Of a DNA stretch of 49,273 bases, positions 1,605 to 13,923 are shown in pieces; the stretch's first letter is position 1, and each line of letters starts with the position of its first letter. The DNA is from Bacteroidales bacterium. GTDB lineage: Bacteria; Bacteroidota; Bacteroidia; Bacteroidales; M50B96. The stretch is taken from NCBI GenBank assembly GCA_018401015.1, contig JAGYLP010000014.1:1-49273 (forward strand), given 5' to 3'. Position numbers and translations under genes: made by a program. Below the pieces are notes generated by a model. It was not told where the DNA came from and ran no database searches. It saw only the letters and a list, made by a program, of their open reading frames with translations.

Positions 1605-3485
1605 ATGCTGAAACGGTTAATCTTCTTCTTCGGGCTATTACTTTCCTACACTGCGGTTAGCTCCGGTCAGGCTAATATCTTGGTGTTGGATGACGCATTT
1701 TCACGAACGCGAATTACCGGCGAAGCTTTCATGTTACCAGCGATAAAGGAAACCGACCAACTGGAATCAATCCTACTTATCGACCAGGATGAATGGGCTC
1801 CGGTGTCGAAAAAAGGATTCGCCAAACCCTACACCAACCAAGCCTGGTGGATTCGATTTCATGTTCAATCGACTAAACCCCGAACCCTGATGTTTGAAAA
1901 TCAATACCCCATGCTCGATGAATATTCCATCTACTTGCATCAGGAATCGACCGGGGAAATATCCTTTCTCGGAAATTTGGGAATGAACCGGGATTTACCC
2001 GACAGCCTGAATCAAACAAAGCTACCCACCGTGGAATTTCAGGTAGATAAAAATCATCGGTATACCATTTACGTCTACCTCGACAAGCGTTTTGGAACCT
2101 CCTTCCTGCCGTTCTACCTCTGGGATGCGGAAAGCTATCGCGACGATCTTGCAGACCGACGATTTAATGAAGGCTTCATTTACGGAGTCTTCTCGCTATT
2201 GTTCCTGGCAGGCCTATTTCTAAGCCTTTACCTGAAACAAAGAATTTACTTCCTGTATTCCCTCTACCTACTCAACCTCTGCGGAGTGCTACTCATTTCC
2301 GATGGCAGCTTTCGCATCTTACTCGACGGAAAAACCTACAAGCAGCATACTTCTCGCTCTACTATTTCATGCTGATAAGTTATTACCTCCTATTCCTTAT
2401 GCTGTCGGAAATCCCTCCATACCAAAACACTACTACCTCATGGCATCGAATGGTGCGCATGCTGATCGGATTTAGACGCAATAACCCTGGTTTTCATTAC
2501 CATCGCCTATTTTTACATTCCGGGTGTTCCACTGCTTGTTTTCAAACTCGCCCTCTTTCTGCTAACCCTGGTTCCTATTGTACTAACCATCATCAACATC
2601 AAAACTTATTTGCTAACCAGAGATGCCGAGCCCTTACTCTTTCTACTCTTGTTTAGTGTGGCCCTCATCTTTGCCCTTACGTTCTCCCTTTTGCCTTACC
2701 TGAAATACGACTTCGAAAAATTTCTATTCTTCCAGTGGCTCTTCCTCTTCGAAGGAATTATGCTTCTAATCATCATTAGTCGAGGACTTTACCTCTTAGC
2801 CCTACGTAGCTTTGAATTAGAAAAAGCCTTACTCCTCAGCAAAGAAGAAGCCTCTAAAGTGTATCTGGAAGGACTGTCGGACGAGCGCAAACGAATTGCT
2901 CAGGAACTCCACGATGGAATAGGACTTAAATTACTCAGTCTGAAAATGAAATTGAGTAAAGATGTGTTCTCGTCGGAAGATCTGAAACGAAATCGACTTT
3001 CCGAAATCGATCAAATTCATGCCGATATCCGAACTAGTTCCCAGGCTATCAGCCCCATCTTACTCCGAGAAAAAGGCTTAATAGCCGCAATGGAAGAAAT
3101 TATTCTAAGCCTGGAAGATGCCTACCCGGAAATGATTTTCGATTTTGAATGGTCGGATAAATTGGAATTCCCAAACCGGCAAATCGAAGAATATTTCTAC
3201 TGGACCTTTATGGAGCTCATGAATAACAGCTTAAAACATGCGCAGGCAAAAACAATTACCATCGTCCTAAAACCCATCGACTCCCATTGGGTATTATGCC
3301 TGAGCGACGACGGAATAGCTTACTCTTTGGATGAAAATGCGGAGGAAATGCAGGGTGGCAGCGGACTAAAAACCATTCGACGAAGAGCTAAAATTCTTAA
3401 CGGAGTATTCGAAGTAGAACGACCCAAGGCCGGTGGAATCAAGCAATGTTTTAAGATACCCTGTCAATCGAATCAATCCGATTAA
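1605..3485 (+). pseudogene. 7TMR-DISM sensor histidine kinase, frameshifted twice as sequenced
   Basis: An export signal (residues 1-22) is followed by a 7TMR-DISMED2-like extracellular sensor domain (about 40-185). A multi-helix membrane region and a HisKA_3 kinase come next, with phospho-acceptor His in AQELHDG (codon 2910-2912), an N-box FMELMNNSLKHA and a late GSGLKTIRRRA box. The reading frame leaves its phase near 2335-2345 and returns near 2470-2478, so the membrane region is read in another frame for about 130 bases. Restoring one A in TACAAGCAGCA and removing one T from GGATTTAGACG gives a continuous 626-residue protein. Both sites are short homopolymers, so sequencing error is likely, although a genuine pseudogene cannot be excluded. 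The convergent LuxR-type regulator at 3502-4125 is the natural partner. Confidence 0.8.
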
Positions 3486-5403: not shown

Positions 5404-5419
5404 GGATTCTTAAGCTTCT
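5394..5419. terminator. bidirectional hairpin overlapping two convergent stop codons
   Basis: An 11-bp perfect stem (AGAAGCTTAAG with its complement CTTAAGCTTCT) closes a 4-base loop. It covers the stop of the Arc-like gene (5401-5403) and that of the convergent pyruvate-kinase-like gene (5410-5412). There is no long T tail, so terminator strength is uncertain. Confidence 0.55.
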
Positions 5420-6486
5420 GCTTCCGAAATCTTTTCCTCCATCTCTTTCCAAAGTCGAATGGCTTCCAATAAGTAAGGCCCCTGGTCGAGTAAAAAAGCA
5501 TCCATCGAACGTAAGAAATAGCGATCCGACAGTTCGCTGCGATTCCAAAATCCAGACTGAATAAAAGAATCGAGTACGCCAGTAGCCAAAAATAGTGGCA
5601 AACGAGCTTTTCGAGCTTCTTCCATGATTCGTTCCTGCCATATACCTAAATTTGACGGACCTCCTTCCGAAACCAAATCGCCCCGCGCTATCATTACCGA
5701 ACAGGGAGGATTCTCGACACAAGCTGCTATAATCGACGACAACTGAGCCATCGCCTCTCGGGTTTCAATCTTGATATTCATGGCTAACTCGCTTCGATTC
5801 CGTTGAATCAGCAATTCGCGAAACGTCTTCACTTCGTCGCCACTGCGTGTAAAGGAAAAACTAACCACATCGGCGTACTTTGCGGCCCATTCCAAATCGC
5901 GTAAATCCTTGTCGCTTAAGCCACGACCAATCGTATTGGTTTCGGGAAAATTAATGCCCTTCCCGACGGCCAAGGAATATGCATGGCCAAACACTCGCTT
6001 CACTTCAACCTGCCAAACTCCTCCCTGCTGAGCGATCAGGATTCCTTCTACCCGGGCATCGTCGAATCGGATTAGTTCCCCTGCTTTTGCCCGCGATAAA
6101 AAATCGTGGTCGGAACACTGAATCAAGGATCCTGCTTGCACGGTTGGCTCGGAGCTCAAGAAAGCGAATTGTCCTTTTCGCAAAGGAAGAGCATCTACTT
6201 GTTTTCCATCGATATAAAGCTCCTCGACCCGATTCTTCGGACCGGCCAAATCGAGCATCAACTTGCCGGAATGACCTCCTTCGATGTTAATTCGATTCAG
6301 CTCGCTGCGCACCACCATCCAATCCCCATGGGTGCCAAAAGCAGCATTGATGCGGAACAAACCCACACCGGCATGCAATAAATCGTTTAAATATGCCGGA
6401 TTCGCCGCAATCATTTCAGGACGAACATTCACCATCAAGGACAAATACCTCGGCGCAATCCAGGGCGCTAATCGTTTATCTATCAT
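5410..6486 (-). CDS. pyruvate-kinase-like barrel protein lacking the C-terminal domain
   Basis: This 358-residue protein aligns by eye with the pyruvate kinase A/B domains. It has R45-I-N47 for the RxN motif, a GPKNR segment, K239-I-E241 in NIKIETREAM for the catalytic Lys and metal-binding Glu, ARGDL with D270, and ATG with T302. The Ser-His of RxNFSHG is replaced by Ala-Phe, the Lys of LDTKGPE by Ala, and the SGETA motif near the end is absent. Usual pyruvate kinases are about 470 residues or more and have a C-terminal regulatory domain, which is missing here. It is therefore either a divergent kinase or a re-purposed relative. Its start overlaps the stop of the upstream membrane-protein gene by four bases (ATGA), so the two are translationally coupled. 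Confidence 0.75.
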   Translation of the reverse strand: MIDKRLAPWIAPRYLSLMVNVRPEMIAANPAYLNDLLHAGVGLFRINAAFGTHGDWMVVRSELNRINIEGGHSGKLMLDLAGPKNRVEELYIDGKQVDALPLRKGQFAFLSSEPTVQAGSLIQCSDHDFLSRAKAGELIRFDDARVEGILIAQQGGVWQVEVKRVFGHAYSLAVGKGINFPETNTIGRGLSDKDLRDLEWAAKYADVVSFSFTRSGDEVKTFRELLIQRNRSELAMNIKIETREAMAQLSSIIAACVENPPCSVMIARGDLVSEGGPSNLGIWQERIMEEARKARLPLFLATGVLDSFIQSGFWNRSELSDRYFLRSMDAFLLDQGPYLLEAIRLWKEMEEKISEAEA

Positions 6487-7508
6487 GGGTTAAGCGTATT
6501 CAAAGGTAACGAGTTGTGCTTCCTCAAGCGAATAATGCGTATCTCCTGAACGATCCAAAAAACAATACCTGTCGCTACGATATACAAGAAATTCAACCCA
6601 TTCGATAAAATACCAAAGCTCAATCCGGCTTGCTCACTAAGTCCAAAGACCAGGAAAAGCTGCAGGATGAACCAATGCGTGGTGCCAATGCCTCCGGGAG
6701 CAGGTAAAGCCCAACCTATGCCACCTATAAATAAGGTAACCGCAGCAAAATAAAAGCTATATCCGGCGGTCAAACTCAAGGCTTGTAAAAAGCCATAATT
6801 CATGAGTATGAGCAAGAACCAAATAAGAAAAGTTAACAGTAAGAACCGTGGATACTTTTTAATTTGAAAAGTAAGCAAAACCGTTTGAACCACTTCCTGA
6901 ACAAAATACACTAAACGCTGAATAATAGCCACTTGCATCAGCTTTTTCCGAAACAGAAAAAAGAAACCAGCCATGGCGATTACAGCAATCGCCAAATAGA
7001 GGTAGGTAGGCCACGAGGCTGAACCGCCTTCGAGCGTTGAACTACCAATTTGCAGGAAAAACTCCCAAAATTTATCGAGCTCAAACAAGCCAACAATCAA
7101 CACCCCAACACCTAAAATCAAGACATCCCAAATACGCTCGCTTACCCCGCTCCCAAACAATTGAGAAAATTTATAATCGTGGGTTCGCTTTATATTCGTG
7201 CAGCGCATAATCTCGCCAAATTTGGGAGTAAAGGAGTTTACGAAATATCCAAAAACAACCGAGTTGAGAATATCGGTAAACTTGACTTGCATACCGGAAT
7301 TTTCCAGTAGAATCTTCCAACGTTCAGCTTTCAAATAGAATACGATTAAAAGCATGGAGAAGCTAAAAGCCATCCAGGCAGGATCGGCGGTGCGGAGGCC
7401 CGCCCAAATTTCCGATAAATCTTTATTGTGGAGTGTGAAGTATAAAAATACCGAAGCTACGATTAGTCCGATGAGTAGCTGCAGGATGCTTTTGAACGAT
7501 TTCGACAT
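6483..7508 (-). CDS. UPF0104/lysylphosphatidylglycerol synthase TM region family membrane protein
   Basis: The protein has about 341 residues from the ATG at 7508; a longer form from a TTG at 7547 is possible but less likely. It has about eight hydrophobic segments. Family features include FGYFVNSFTPKFGEIMRC, ERIWDVLILG, and ALPAPGGIGTTHWF near the end. Homologues are flippase-like proteins: MprF N-terminal domains, and AglD, which acts in archaeal glycosylation. The substrate here cannot be told. It lies upstream of the pyruvate-kinase-like gene with a four-base overlap, so the two probably act together. Confidence 0.85.
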   Translation of the reverse strand: MSKSFKSILQLLIGLIVASVFLYFTLHNKDLSEIWAGLRTADPAWMAFSFSMLLIVFYLKAERWKILLENSGMQVKFTDILNSVVFGYFVNSFTPKFGEIMRCTNIKRTHDYKFSQLFGSGVSERIWDVLILGVGVLIVGLFELDKFWEFFLQIGSSTLEGGSASWPTYLYLAIAVIAMAGFFFLFRKKLMQVAIIQRLVYFVQEVVQTVLLTFQIKKYPRFLLLTFLIWFLLILMNYGFLQALSLTAGYSFYFAAVTLFIGGIGWALPAPGGIGTTHWFILQLFLVFGLSEQAGLSFGILSNGLNFLYIVATGIVFWIVQEIRIIRLRKHNSLPLNTLNP

Positions 7509-8420: not shown

Positions 8421-9728
8421 ATGAAAACCAAATCCATCCTTCTCGTCCTTACCCTAAGTTTGTTCGGATTGGCTCCTGGAAATTTACAAGCTCAACAGTC
8501 GCTGAGCCTGAGCCTTGATGAGGCTCGTCAGTACGCCCTTGAACACAACCGCACCTTAACCAATACCCAATTCGAAGTAGAAAAATCGCAGTGGGCCGTT
8601 CTGGAAAGTATTGCCGCCGGATTGCCCCAAGCCAGCGCACAGCTCGATTATCAAAGCTTCATGGGTGCCGAAATGCTTATCCGTTTTGGCGAAGGAATGC
8701 CCGAACAGTACATTCCGCTTCGTCCTCAAAGTAATATGAACATTACCCTGAGTCAGTTGGTGTTCAACGGAAACTACTTTGTGGGAATTCAGGCTGCACG
8801 TATTGCACAGGACATGGCTGCCACGAACCGACAAAAGTCGAAACTAGAAGTGGAAACTCAGGTAATCGATGCCTACAACCTTGTTCTCATTACCCAGGAA
8901 TTACTTCGAGTACTGGAAATGAATGTCGATAACCTGGAAGATTTATTCAAGAAAACAGCCGCTCTGGGCGAAGTGGGAATTATTGAACAAACCGATGTCG
9001 ATCAGCTCGAAATACAGCTCAATTCGCTCAAAAATGCCGTTAACCAAACACAACGGCAAAAAGAGCTGGCCATGAACATGCTCAAGATGCAATTGGGAAT
9101 CGACCCATCCGACGAAGTAATCCCAACCAATACGCTCGATGAAGTGCTCGCAACCATGGATCTCGACTACTTACTCATGACCGACCTGCAACTGCGCCAA
9201 AACTTCGATTATCAGCTCATGCTGAAACAAGAAGAACTCAGTAAAAAAATGATTAACATGCAATATGCCAACGCCTTACCAACCATTTCAGCCTTCTATC
9301 AACACACAATTAAAATTATACGACCCGACTTCGACATGGTTCCCAACAATGCAATCGGATTCTCGGTAAGCATTCCAATTTTCTCGAGCGGCCAACGCTA
9401 TTCGCAAGTCAAGCAAGCTTCTATCGATTTCCAAACAACTCAAAATAATCGTCGCCTCCTGGAAGATCAGCTCAAAATTCAGGAAAAGCAACTCAAATTC
9501 AATTTCAGCAATGCCTACGAAGCCTTTATTAATCAAAAGAAAAACATCGAAGTCTCGGAAAGAGTAAACAATAACATTCGCATCAAGTACGAGCAAGGAA
9601 TGGTTTCAGGACTGGATCTGATTAATGCCGACAATAATTATCTCCGTGCCGTGAACGAGTACATCAGCTCCATCATGGAAATGCTCAATGCTTCCACCCA
9701 ACTAAAAAAATTATACGGACAAATTTAA
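8421..9728 (+). CDS. TolC-family outer membrane efflux protein
   Basis: The 435-residue protein has an export signal (about 1-24) followed by SLSLDEARQYALEHNRTL, a typical start of an outer-membrane efflux domain. Two long coiled-coil stretches alternate with short beta segments: residues about 140-230 with EQTDVDQLEIQLNSLKNAVNQ, and the C-terminal YEQGMVSGLDLINADNNYL. It forms the outer-membrane duct of a tripartite pump with the two following genes. Spacing to the next gene is 15 bases, consistent with one operon. The substrate is not predictable. Confidence 0.93.
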   Translation: MKTKSILLVLTLSLFGLAPGNLQAQQSLSLSLDEARQYALEHNRTLTNTQFEVEKSQWAVLESIAAGLPQASAQLDYQSFMGAEMLIRFGEGMPEQYIPLRPQSNMNITLSQLVFNGNYFVGIQAARIAQDMAATNRQKSKLEVETQVIDAYNLVLITQELLRVLEMNVDNLEDLFKKTAALGEVGIIEQTDVDQLEIQLNSLKNAVNQTQRQKELAMNMLKMQLGIDPSDEVIPTNTLDEVLATMDLDYLLMTDLQLRQNFDYQLMLKQEELSKKMINMQYANALPTISAFYQHTIKIIRPDFDMVPNNAIGFSVSIPIFSSGQRYSQVKQASIDFQTTQNNRRLLEDQLKIQEKQLKFNFSNAYEAFINQKKNIEVSERVNNNIRIKYEQGMVSGLDLINADNNYLRAVNEYISSIMEMLNASTQLKKLYGQI

Positions 9729-9743
9729 TTTCCCTTCACATCT

Positions 9744-10790
9744 ATGAAAAACATCCTCAACCTGCTTGTCCTGTTCATGGCACTTAGCTTGATCAGTTGC
9801 AACCAACCAGCCGAATCAAAAACCGAAACGGCTGTCGATGAACCCAAAGTAGAAAACATCAAAGTAGTAGAACTAAAACGCCAGGAGGTTAGTCGCACCA
9901 TCGAAAATACTGCGACCTTGCTCGCATACGAAGAGCTGCATTTATCACCTTCTTCGCCCGGTCGAATCGATAATATTTATGTCGAAGTCGGATCGAGGGT
10001 TAACAAAGGAAGCCTCCTCCTGGAAATGGACAAAACGCAATTGCATCAAGCCGAACTGCAGTTACAACTACTGGAAACTGAATTTAACCGACTCGATACT
10101 TTACGAAAGCTTGGCTCCATTGCGCAACAGCAGTTCGACCAAACCCAATCGCAATACGAAATAGCTCAATCCAATGTAGCCTTCCTTCGGAAAAACATTG
10201 AACTACGAGCTCCTTTCAGCGGAATCATTTCGGGTAAATATTTCGAATCGGGCGAAATGTACTCCGGTACACCAACCACCCAATCGGGCAAATCGGCTGT
10301 TGTTTCGCTGGTGCAAATCAACAAACTCAAATCGATGGTCCCCATCTCAGAAACGTACTTTCCTTCCATTCGAGTGGGAATGGAAATCGAACTGGTGAGC
10401 GATGTGTACCCCGATAAAGTATTCAAAGGCAGCATCTATCGGATTCATCCAACCATCGACCCTGCCACTCGGAGCTTCCAGGTCGAAATCATGGTCGATA
10501 ATGCCGAAGAATTAATACGACCCGGGATGTTCGCTCGAGTAAGCATCGCCATCGACCGCATCGAATCGCTCTTGCTTCCTTCGCTTGCCGTATTGAAATT
10601 GCAAGGATCGAACGAACGATACCTTTTCAAAGTTGAAAACAATCGGGCAGTGCGGGTCGTTGTTACGATGGGCGCGCGCTACGACGATTTAGTTGAAGTT
10701 TTCTCCAATAACCTGAACGAAGGCGACCAGGTGGTCATTTTTGGTCAGAGCCGTTTAGTAGATGGAGTACCCGTTCAAATCATTCCCTAA
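9744..10790 (+). CDS. RND efflux membrane fusion protein, lipoprotein
   Basis: This is a 348-residue periplasmic adaptor. A lipoprotein signal ends in LISC with Cys19 as the lipid anchor. Next come the lipoyl half-motif SPGRIDNIYVEVGSRVNKGSLL, a helical hairpin (LQLQLLETEFNRLDTLRKLG) and the second lipoyl half, LRAPFSGIISGKYFESGE. A beta-barrel and membrane-proximal domain end with VLKLQGSNERYLFKV. It joins the TolC protein to the RND permease. The start is 15 bases after the TolC stop. Confidence 0.94.
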   Translation: MKNILNLLVLFMALSLISCNQPAESKTETAVDEPKVENIKVVELKRQEVSRTIENTATLLAYEELHLSPSSPGRIDNIYVEVGSRVNKGSLLLEMDKTQLHQAELQLQLLETEFNRLDTLRKLGSIAQQQFDQTQSQYEIAQSNVAFLRKNIELRAPFSGIISGKYFESGEMYSGTPTTQSGKSAVVSLVQINKLKSMVPISETYFPSIRVGMEIELVSDVYPDKVFKGSIYRIHPTIDPATRSFQVEIMVDNAEELIRPGMFARVSIAIDRIESLLLPSLAVLKLQGSNERYLFKVENNRAVRVVVTMGARYDDLVEVFSNNLNEGDQVVIFGQSRLVDGVPVQIIP

Positions 10791-10808
10791 AACTTTAATA
10801 GCTAAGCT

Positions 10809-13800
10809 ATGAGCATTTACAAAACCGCTGTCAGTAAACCCATTACAACCGTAATGATCTTTACGGCCATCGTCGTAATGGGCCTGTATTCGCTAACCCG
10901 AATACCCATCGACTTATACCCGGAACTCGATCCTCCTTTCCTTTCGGTTATTACCACTTATCCGGGTGCCAACGCAACCGATATTGAACAAAACGTTACG
11001 AAAATCCTGGAAGATGCACTTAACTCGGTCGATAAACTGAAGGAAATCACTTCTACCTCATCCGATAATCTATCCATCATCACCCTGGAATTTGATTGGG
11101 AAGCGAATCTCGACGAAGCCACCAACGATATCCGCGATGTAATCGACCGAACCTTTCAGTTTCTGCCGGAAGATGTAGAACGGCCAACCATCTTCAAGTT
11201 CAATACGAACATGATGCCCATCGTTTTCTATGCAGTTACCGCCAAGGAAAGCTATCCGGGCATTGAGCGAATTCTCGACGAAAAACTCATCAATCCTCTG
11301 AATCGAATCGAAGGAGTTGGATCGGTCGGGATGATGGGTGCTCCCAAACGAATCGTTTATGTTGAAGTCGATCCACAACGTCTCGATGCTTACAACATGA
11401 GCATCGAACAATTGGGAGCAGTTATTTCGGCCGAGAACATGAACTTGCCCTCCGGCAGCATCAAAATGGGCCTGATGGATTACCAATTACGGGTTCAAGG
11501 GGAGTTCAAAGAAAGCGCGGAACTGAATCACCTGGTAGTTGGAACCTTCAATGGCAAACCCATCTATTTGAGAGACATAGCCGATGTTGACGATCGCGAA
11601 AAAGACATTTCGCAAGACGAGAAGATAAACGGGGAAACCGGTTTGCGCTTCTTCGTTATGAAACAATCGGGTGCCAACACGGTGCAAGTAGCTCGCGAAG
11701 TACAGGCGATGCTCACAGATTTAAAAAAGACCTTACCGCCCGATATCGAAATCAACCTGATACTCGACACCTCGCACTTCATTAAAGGTTCCATCAATAA
11801 CCTTTCGTCCACCCTGCTCTACGCTCTATTCTTCGTCGTTCTGGTGGTCCTGTTTTTCCTGGGCCGATGGAGAGCAACCTTCATCATTGTGCTTACCATC
11901 CCGATATCGCTCATTGTTTCTTTCATTTACCTTTTTGTGAGCGGAAACAGCATCAATGTAATCTCCCTTACCTCGCTTTCCATTGCTATTGGTATGGTGG
12001 TCGACGATGCTATTGTGGTATTAGAAAATATTACCCGACACATTGAACGGGGTAGTAGCCCGCGCGAAGCAGCCGTTTACGCCACCAACGAGGTGTGGCA
12101 ATCGGTCATTATCACAACCCTCGTAATCGTAGCCGTTTTCTTCCCGCTCACCCTCGTAGGCGGGCTAACAGGAGTTATGTTCAAACAGTTAGGTTGGATT
12201 GTTACCATCACGGTTATTACTTCGACCTTTGCGGCCATTACCTAACACCAATGATGGCAGCACAGCTTTACGATTGCGTCCGCTTAATGCCGATCGGAAA
12301 AGCCTGTACGAACGAACCATCGAACCGCTACTTGCTTGGCTAGAAGACACTTACACAGGCACCTTGCGCTGGATGCTCAAGTACAAAGCCATGATTCTGA
12401 TTGTGGCACTGCTCCTTTTTGGTTCGTCCCTCGTGTTGCTAAAATTTATCGGAACCGACTTCATGCCGCAAACCGACGAATCGAGTATCACCTTAAATGC
12501 TGAATTACAAACCGGTACCCGTGTGGAAGAAACCATGAAAGTGGCTCGTAAAATTGAATCTTTCGTCTTTGAGGAGTTCCCCGAAATCCAAATCCTGGCT
12601 ACCTCGGCCGGTTCCGACGACGAAGGAAGCATGTTCTCGCTCTTCCAAACCAGCGGTTCGAATGTGATTAACATGACCATGCGACTCAAAAACCCCGACG
12701 AGCGTGCCGAAGATGTGTGGCAAGTTGCGGCTCGACTCCGGGAAAAAATCGATGTGATTCCCGAAATAGTTGTGTACGATATTTCAACTACCAGCGGTTT
12801 TGGAGGAATGACCGGCAACACGGTTAATGTGGAGATTTATGGCTACAACATCGACAAAACCAACCTGATAGCCAAGAATTTAGCCGATCGATTCGAAACC
12901 ATTCCCGGAGCGGTCGATGTACAAATAAGTCGTAAAGCGGATAAACCGGAACTACAAGTAATTCTCGATCGGGAGAAAATTGCCGGACATGGGCTAAACA
13001 CGGCCAACGTTTCCTCTCAAATCCGAAATCGGGTATCGGGTCTTACCGCCGCCATGTTCCGCGAGGAAGGAAGCGAATTCGATATCCGCATTCGCCTCAA
13101 AGAGGAATACCGTAATTCCATCACCGACCTCGAAAACATCAGCATTGTGAACCAAATGGGACAACGAATTAAACTGAAAGAGATTGGCGAAGTAGTGGAA
13201 TATTTCTCGCCACCATCCATTCAGCATAAGAAAAAAGAGCGTTTGGTTACCGTTATGGTGAAACCCGAAAATGTTTCGTTGGGCGAATTGGCCAATTCAA
13301 TCAACGCGAGCGTGAGCGAAGTGGAAGTCCCCGACGATGTTAAAATTGTAGTGGGTGGTGCCTTTAAAGATCAACAAGAATCCTTCATGGATTTGGGCCT
13401 CCTGCTGCTTCTGAGTATTGTGCTGGTATTCATCGTAATGGCTTCGCAGTTCGAGTCTTTCATCATGCCATTTGTCATTATGTTCTCCATTCCATTCGCG
13501 TTCTCGGGAGTATTTTACGCCTTAATCTTAACCAATACCACCCTTTCCATTATTGCGGGTTTAGGAGCTGTCTTGCTCATTGGAATTGTAGTTAAAAACG
13601 GCATTGTGCTCATCGACTATATCAATCTGATGCGCGACCGCGACAATCGATTGGAAGATGCCATCATCATGGCCGGAAAATCGCGTTTGCGTCCGGTTCT
13701 TATGACAGCCTTTACCACTACCCTCGGTATGCTGCCTTTAGCCTTGAGCAGTGGCGAAGGATCGGAGATCTGGAGCCCAATGGGTATTTCCGTCATTGGA

Positions 13801-13923
13801 GGATTGCTTTTCTCAACTTTAATTACCCTGGTGCTTATCCCTATTTTATATGCGATGATGGCAAAAACTGGTCAACGCGATAAAACCGGCCGCTTACGGG
13901 CAAAATTCACCGAATTAGAATAA
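10809..13923 (+). pseudogene. RND multidrug efflux permease, frameshifted as sequenced
   Basis: This is the inner-membrane proton-driven pump of the tripartite system. The N-terminus has YKTAVSKPITTVMIFTAIVV and PYPxLDPP-like YPELDPPFLS. TM4 carries IGMVVDDAIVVLENI with the paired proton-relay Asp residues, and TM10 carries GIVVKNGIVLIDYIN with the matching Lys. This is the HAE1 drug-efflux type rather than the heavy-metal type. The frame breaks at 12243-12245 and again near 12265. Two missing single bases (one C in ACCTAACACC, one T in CAGCTTTACG) would restore ITLTPMMAAQLLRLRPLNAD. The corrected length is 1038 residues, exactly that of the family. Sequencing error in short runs is the likely cause. 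Confidence 0.85.

Follow-up and report, generated by a model that had tools for sequence, protein, structure and literature searches.

The window (the whole stretch analyzed, 49,273 nucleotides of contig JAGYLP010000014.1 from a Bacteroidales bacterium) carries on its minus strand a gene for a shortened pyruvate kinase (PK)-like protein. We lean towards reading this protein as a reduced, fast-evolving descendant of PRK14725-type PKs that is particular to this lineage and probably keeps Mg/enolate chemistry. Its gene follows, with a short overlap, a gene for a membrane protein:

Positions 5410 to 6486, minus strand: PK-like gene, 358 aa, A barrel and B lid, PRK14725-like (from the ORF, PF00224, NF011314 and an AlphaFold2 model).
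Positions 6483 to 7508, minus strand: LPG_synthase_TM/UPF0104 flippase-like membrane gene, 341 aa from the ATG at 7508 (from PF03706 and TIGR00374).
Positions 6483 to 6486, minus strand: four-base stop/start overlap ATGA between the membrane gene and the PK-like gene (read directly in the sequence).

The four-base overlap with a UPF0104-type gene had been pointed out in the first-pass annotation and is confirmed here. The membrane protein passes both PF03706 (136.1 bits, cut-off 33.4) and TIGR00374 (50.3 bits, cut-off 43.2), and so belongs with UPF0104/PF03706 proteins such as GpgF and YbhN (UPF0104 as named in excerpts of PMC12713373), from which it differs in having a PK-like gene as partner; its reading frame would also allow a longer start at TTG 7547. 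The two proteins are probably co-translated. A frameshift artefact as the cause of the shortness of the PK-like protein was set aside as unlikely, because the upstream membrane gene is intact up to the overlap and because the two nearest relatives of the PK-like protein (L055 and L059) likewise end without a C domain.

The PK-like protein matches PF00224 over residues 31-321 with 103.4 bits, above the gathering cut-off of 30, and fails the TIGR01064 pyruv_kin model (128 bits, cut-off 306). Its best NCBIfam model is PRK14725 (NF011314, 614 positions), with 216.2 bits, under the curated cut-off of 642. A PHROGs search returned one family of unknown function, and PADLOC gave no match for either protein of the pair. 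An AlphaFold2 model built from 8 sequences (pLDDT 82.4) superposes from residue 12 to residue 358 on rabbit PK 2g50, positions 41-391 (322 residues at an rmsd of 2.9, Z 33.5), and the best 50 structure matches listed for it are all pyruvate kinases (Z 29.8 to 33.5). In this predicted model, the barrel and lid are present and the C domain is absent; the ORF stops after the barrel, which bears out the earlier claim that the whole C-terminal domain is lost.

Ranked by PRK14725 score, the relatives make up a falling series: 738 bits for L117 (640 aa), 626 for L108 (516 aa), 580 for L110 (515 aa), 323 for L059 (462 aa), 277 for L055 (466 aa) and 216 for the window protein (358 aa). The window protein shares with PRK14725 the DLxGPK, KIET and ARGDL motifs, the L(D/N)xG end and the lack of a C domain behind the barrel. 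It differs in having neither the insert seen in members of 610-650 aa nor the N-terminal extension (about 110 residues or more in relatives), the latter being absent in the window protein only, and in carrying Phe for His and Gly for Gln at two sites described below. With canonical PKs (TIGR01064 and the genome's own copy on contig C57), it has in common domains A and B, the catalytic Lys, the metal-binding Glu/Asp and the Thr, but it has no C domain, and the best trees keep it separate. Another PK model of similar length, PRK06739 (NF005234, 352 positions), scores only 71 bits against a cut-off of 564. Its length suggests that short PK-barrel proteins lacking, to judge from that length, the C domain are already present in family libraries.

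Four motifs were placed in an alignment of 67 sequences, made up of three clade members (the window protein, L055 and L059), 44 other PRK14725-like proteins and 20 true PKs:

Positions 5677 to 5688, minus strand: A267-R-G-D270, motif of the metal-binding Asp (alignment; role presumed from PK).
Positions 5764 to 5772, minus strand: K239-I-E241, catalytic Lys and metal-binding Glu (alignment; roles likewise presumed from PK).
Positions 6226 to 6252, minus strand: D79-LAGPKNR-V87, the LDTKGPE motif in its K+-independent type (alignment, and the signature in excerpts of PMC8835810 and PMC4374775).
Positions 6337 to 6354, minus strand: R45-I-N-A-A-F50, the RxNFSH site with Ser replaced by Ala and His by Phe (alignment).

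'True PK' is a label that we assigned from score, length and motif; L012, L015, L020, L021 and the duplicate L052 lie outside the alignment, as do further matches without a locus. Lys239, Glu241, Asp270 and Thr302, earlier listed as kept, are indeed so: together with N47, they are invariant in 67/67 rows. We assume for K239, E241 and D270 the roles known from pyruvate kinases in general. In rabbit numbering, R72, N74, D112, R119, K206, K269, E271, A292, R293, G294, D295 and T327 are invariant (12/12) in the three clade members, this set having been chosen after the alignment was seen. When the changed positions S76, H77, T113, K114 and Q328 are added, 15 of 17 columns are invariant in the three, versus 93 of 339 overall (P ~1e-7); as the list was drawn up post hoc, and its columns are conserved family-wide, this speaks for constraint on the site and not for activity.

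Three residue losses had been put forward as evidence of a special enzyme, and two of them, the Lys of LDTKGPE and the Ser of RxNFSHG, proved common in the group. The Lys is of no diagnostic value: of the 20 true PKs aligned, 17 lack it and read DLQGPK, the genome's own PK among them. The published K+-independent signature comprises L113, Gln114, K117 and V120 (excerpts of PMC8835810 and PMC4374775, from which we also took the rabbit numbering of the K+ ligands and of positions 113-120). The window motif D79-V87 has L113, K117 and V120 of this signature, with Ala in place of Gln114, and A, G, S or P stands at position 114 in 44/44 of the other PRK14725-like rows. Ser and His are both absent, as first read, but for Ser this is ordinary: among the 64 other PRK14725-like proteins, 58 lack it and 6 keep it (6/44 in the alignment and 0/20 in a phylum set described below), while 18 of 20 true PKs keep it and 2 do not. 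The loss of His is unusual. It is kept in 62/64 other PRK14725-like proteins (the exceptions being L121, with Tyr, and L126, with Ala) and in 20/20 true PKs, and is Phe in all three clade members. Likewise, the Gln following the active Thr is kept in all 84 others (44 + 20 + 20) and is replaced by Gly in the window protein and by Glu in L055 and L059. These two replacements could abolish catalysis.

A less likely reading is that the protein is decaying or non-catalytic and accompanies the membrane gene as a sensor of some ligand or as a leftover. Fast evolution, the shrinkage among relatives from 640 through 515 and 465 to 358 aa and the absence of the gene at the syntenic place in a genome of the same genus (G001) would all fit. 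Against it speak the active-site constraint and the open frame of 358 codons, whose codon use fits the other window genes better than shifted frames do (mean log weight -1.13 versus -1.27); a non-catalytic role in binding a metal or ligand is conceivable all the same.

The best trees place the protein, on a very long branch, among PRK14725-like ones. We computed a careful tree of 27 rows (the three clade members, 16 of the 44 other PK-like rows and 8 of the 20 true PK rows), in which the 8 true PKs lie across a 100/100 branch from the rest. The window protein groups with L059 and L055 (100/99), and this trio is nested in an 11-row clade (100/99) with 8 PRK14725-like proteins. The end branch of the window protein measures 2.7 changes per column, and the program warns that its placement, given this length, is uncertain; a quick tree of all 67 rows gave the same placement. 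A tree constrained to join these three to the true PKs is worse by 9.8 log units (AU p 0.114), so that their union with true PKs is disfavored and not rejected. In the comparison proposed earlier, the protein stands apart from true PKs in the best trees, without a grouping with them being strictly excluded.

We searched for further members with profile A2, derived from the three nearest members. At E 1e-40, 27 of 393 genomes of the order match; three of these (G030, G334 and G253), judged by their score, length and motif, look like true PKs, so that 24 order genomes remain, window included. At E 1e-50, the profile matches 20 genomes of the class and 37 of the phylum, out of 395 in each draw, again with the window included and with overlap between the draws. 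In the phylum set, 20 new loci were checked with 1.5 kb flanks, and 7 listed matches have no locus. A scan of genome contigs with the single protein confirmed no relative; a second scan, with the alignment as query, yielded 7 loci.

The product of 5410-6486 would then be a complete TIM-barrel A domain with its B lid, devoid of N-terminal extension and C domain. Most likely, it would bind Mg2+ and a pyruvate- or PEP-like 2-oxoacid via K239, E241, R268 and D270 and carry out enolate or phosphoryl chemistry that, given the Lys at rabbit position 117, would have no need for K+. The site of the His-to-Phe change (F50) lies, as we assume, on the nucleotide side; because of this change and of the missing C domain, the protein would be neither the cell's glycolytic PK nor regulated like one.

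A plain K+-independent second PK, working without a C domain and not specially tied to the membrane protein, is an explanation that we consider unlikely, even though the catalytic Lys, metal-binding Glu/Asp and Thr are retained. The missing Ser is no argument against activity by itself, since only 30% of crenarchaeal PK sequences have this residue (excerpts of PMC4374775). Harder to reconcile with a plain PK are the His-to-Phe and Gln-to-Gly/Glu changes in 3/3 members and the very long branch. Moreover, a stronger-scoring PK exists in the window's genome (G000; the ordinary PK on contig C57 has 392 bits to PF00224) and in G002, the genome of L055. In G003, the genome of L059, we found no PF00224 protein besides the PK-like one, which would suit a plain PK: either the assembly lacks the true PK or the genome has the PK-like protein alone. 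This lack is a weak point, as the assembly is about 90% complete and in 320 contigs.

Does the membrane protein take part in the function? In all three clade genomes, the membrane gene is the immediate upstream neighbor on the same strand, and the membrane proteins of the L055 and L059 loci are 50% identical to that of the window. In G001, G002 and G003, the membrane gene comes after a gene with ankyrin repeats (with one extra gene between in G003), and in G002 and G003 the pair faces a convergent gene of the CoA-ligase type. In the window's genome, the CoA-ligase gene is on another contig (C78), away from the pair; as the outer neighbors thus differ from those of G002 and G003, the two genes stay side by side in two distinct contexts. 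In G001, a genome of the same genus that is about 60% complete, the opposite strand after the membrane gene reads TAVDARIRILK-stop, like the end of the CoA-ligase. Since this convergent end follows at once, no PK-like gene lies behind the G001 membrane gene, and the incomplete genome has no PF00224 match; searching G001 for the CoA-ligase at 1e-30 yielded nothing, as only the last residues of the gene lie on the contig, where they were recognized by eye.

Co-occurrence of the two genes, proposed earlier as a check, therefore holds within the clade but not beyond it: the pairing is seen in 3 of 67 PK-like loci, which are exactly the three clade members, all of one taxonomic family that is represented by four genomes in the draws. 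An HMM of 26 membrane proteins detected none around the other 44 PK-like genes in stretches of at most 17 kb, several of them shortened by a contig end, and none beside the 20 phylum PK-like genes in flanks of 1.5 kb. The 47 wide loci include some cut by contig ends, and the contig-cut G250 was left out.

These observations bear on a further explanation, a lipid-modifying and transport unit in which the PK-like protein would act on the head group of a lipid or on its precursor, adding or removing a phosphoryl or enolpyruvyl-type group, and the product would be flipped by the UPF0104 protein. The four-base overlap is consistent with such a unit, as is the same-strand adjacency in 3/3 clade genomes, maintained even with the different outer neighbors of the window. 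By analogy, operons of the gpgSDF/hexSDF type pair modifying enzymes with a predicted flippase: in Pseudomonas aeruginosa, a UPF0104 protein is encoded in an operon (gpgSDF) with lipid-modifying enzymes, its flippase activity being predicted only (excerpts of PMC12713373). By this analogy, a lipid-linked role with a flippase-like partner is possible; what speaks for it here is adjacency in three genomes. We consider the full unit unlikely, as the pairing is confined to one family, G001 has the membrane gene with no PK-like gene behind it, 0/64 other PK-like genes have such a membrane gene within the stretches covered, and no lipid- or glycan-synthesis gene was seen common to all three flanks in ORF lists read by eye and partly annotated. 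We would give no better chance to a monodomain PK descendant in which the nucleotide has been swapped for another phosphoryl or enolate partner and which acts with the UPF0104 flippase on a membrane lipid or precursor; no lipid-coupled, nucleotide-swapped use of the PK fold is among the literature matches listed, and to our knowledge pyruvate kinase has seldom been found re-purposed.

In other families of the order, the membrane gene keeps other company. Among 22 such loci, neighbors cluster with panC in 10 and panD in 11 (representatives identified by Pfam), so that this family of membrane proteins is not bound to PK-like partners. Together with the pairing being limited to one family and the G001 membrane gene standing without a PK-like gene, this leaves the lipid-linked or membrane substrate of the first-pass annotation unsupported. 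The genes recur as a row of panC, panD, UPF0104 and a cytidylyltransferase-like gene (10, 11 and 10 of 22 for panC, panD and the last), for example at L087:280-2953 (by Pfam).

Of the forms compared here, this clade holds the shortest, which closes a series running from 640 down to 358 aa, and it offers a compact test of a barrel without C domain in which the Lys and metal site are kept and a near-fixed His and Gln are changed. PRK14725 itself is a poorly understood subfamily: although it is named in the family library, the literature collection searched holds no paper on it, and the matches listed for truncated or C-domain-less pyruvate kinases include nothing on this subfamily. The plant protein At3g49160 is, we presume, a possible relative. 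The third PK of Vibrio cholerae (excerpts of PMC6069732) was set aside as not relevant for comparison.

The longer relatives (610-640 aa) recur in a row of genes comprising a class III nucleotidyl cyclase, an HD-PycTM protein (Pycsar-type), the PRK14725-like protein and Omp85, as at L117:722-10572 and also in L060, L114, L115, L118 and L119. Cyclase, HD-PycTM and PK-like genes occur together in 6 of 47 loci, with Omp85 next in 5 (L114 ends at a contig end); the HD-PycTM cluster is present in 10/47 loci and the Omp85 cluster in 9/47. One representative of each row member was identified by Pfam and, for PycC/PycTM, by PADLOC, the rest by BLAST cluster. PycTM has no match in G000-G003, so this setting is not seen for the present clade. 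No paper on Pycsar or DUF5706 together with pyruvate kinase was found in the literature collection searched, and a PK-like protein in a cyclic-nucleotide gene row merits a study of its own. An association of PK-like genes with TolC-MFP-RND pump genes, such as those at 8421-13923 of the window, was dropped, since Pfam identified representatives of the recurrent neighbors of the 620-aa relatives as class III cyclase, HD-PycTM and Omp85 proteins.

Two other genes of the window are broken over reading frames. At 10809-13923, an AcrB-type pump gene is split in two overlapping frames (ACR_tran model positions 1-480 and 490-1020) by a frameshift, either real or due to assembly, and adjoins a TetR gene and ORFs taken for TolC and MFP. 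At 1605-3485, an apparent single 7TMR-DISM sensor histidine kinase has its DISMED2 domain and the start of its 7TM domain at 1605-2375 and its HisKA_3/HATPase domains at 2610-3485.
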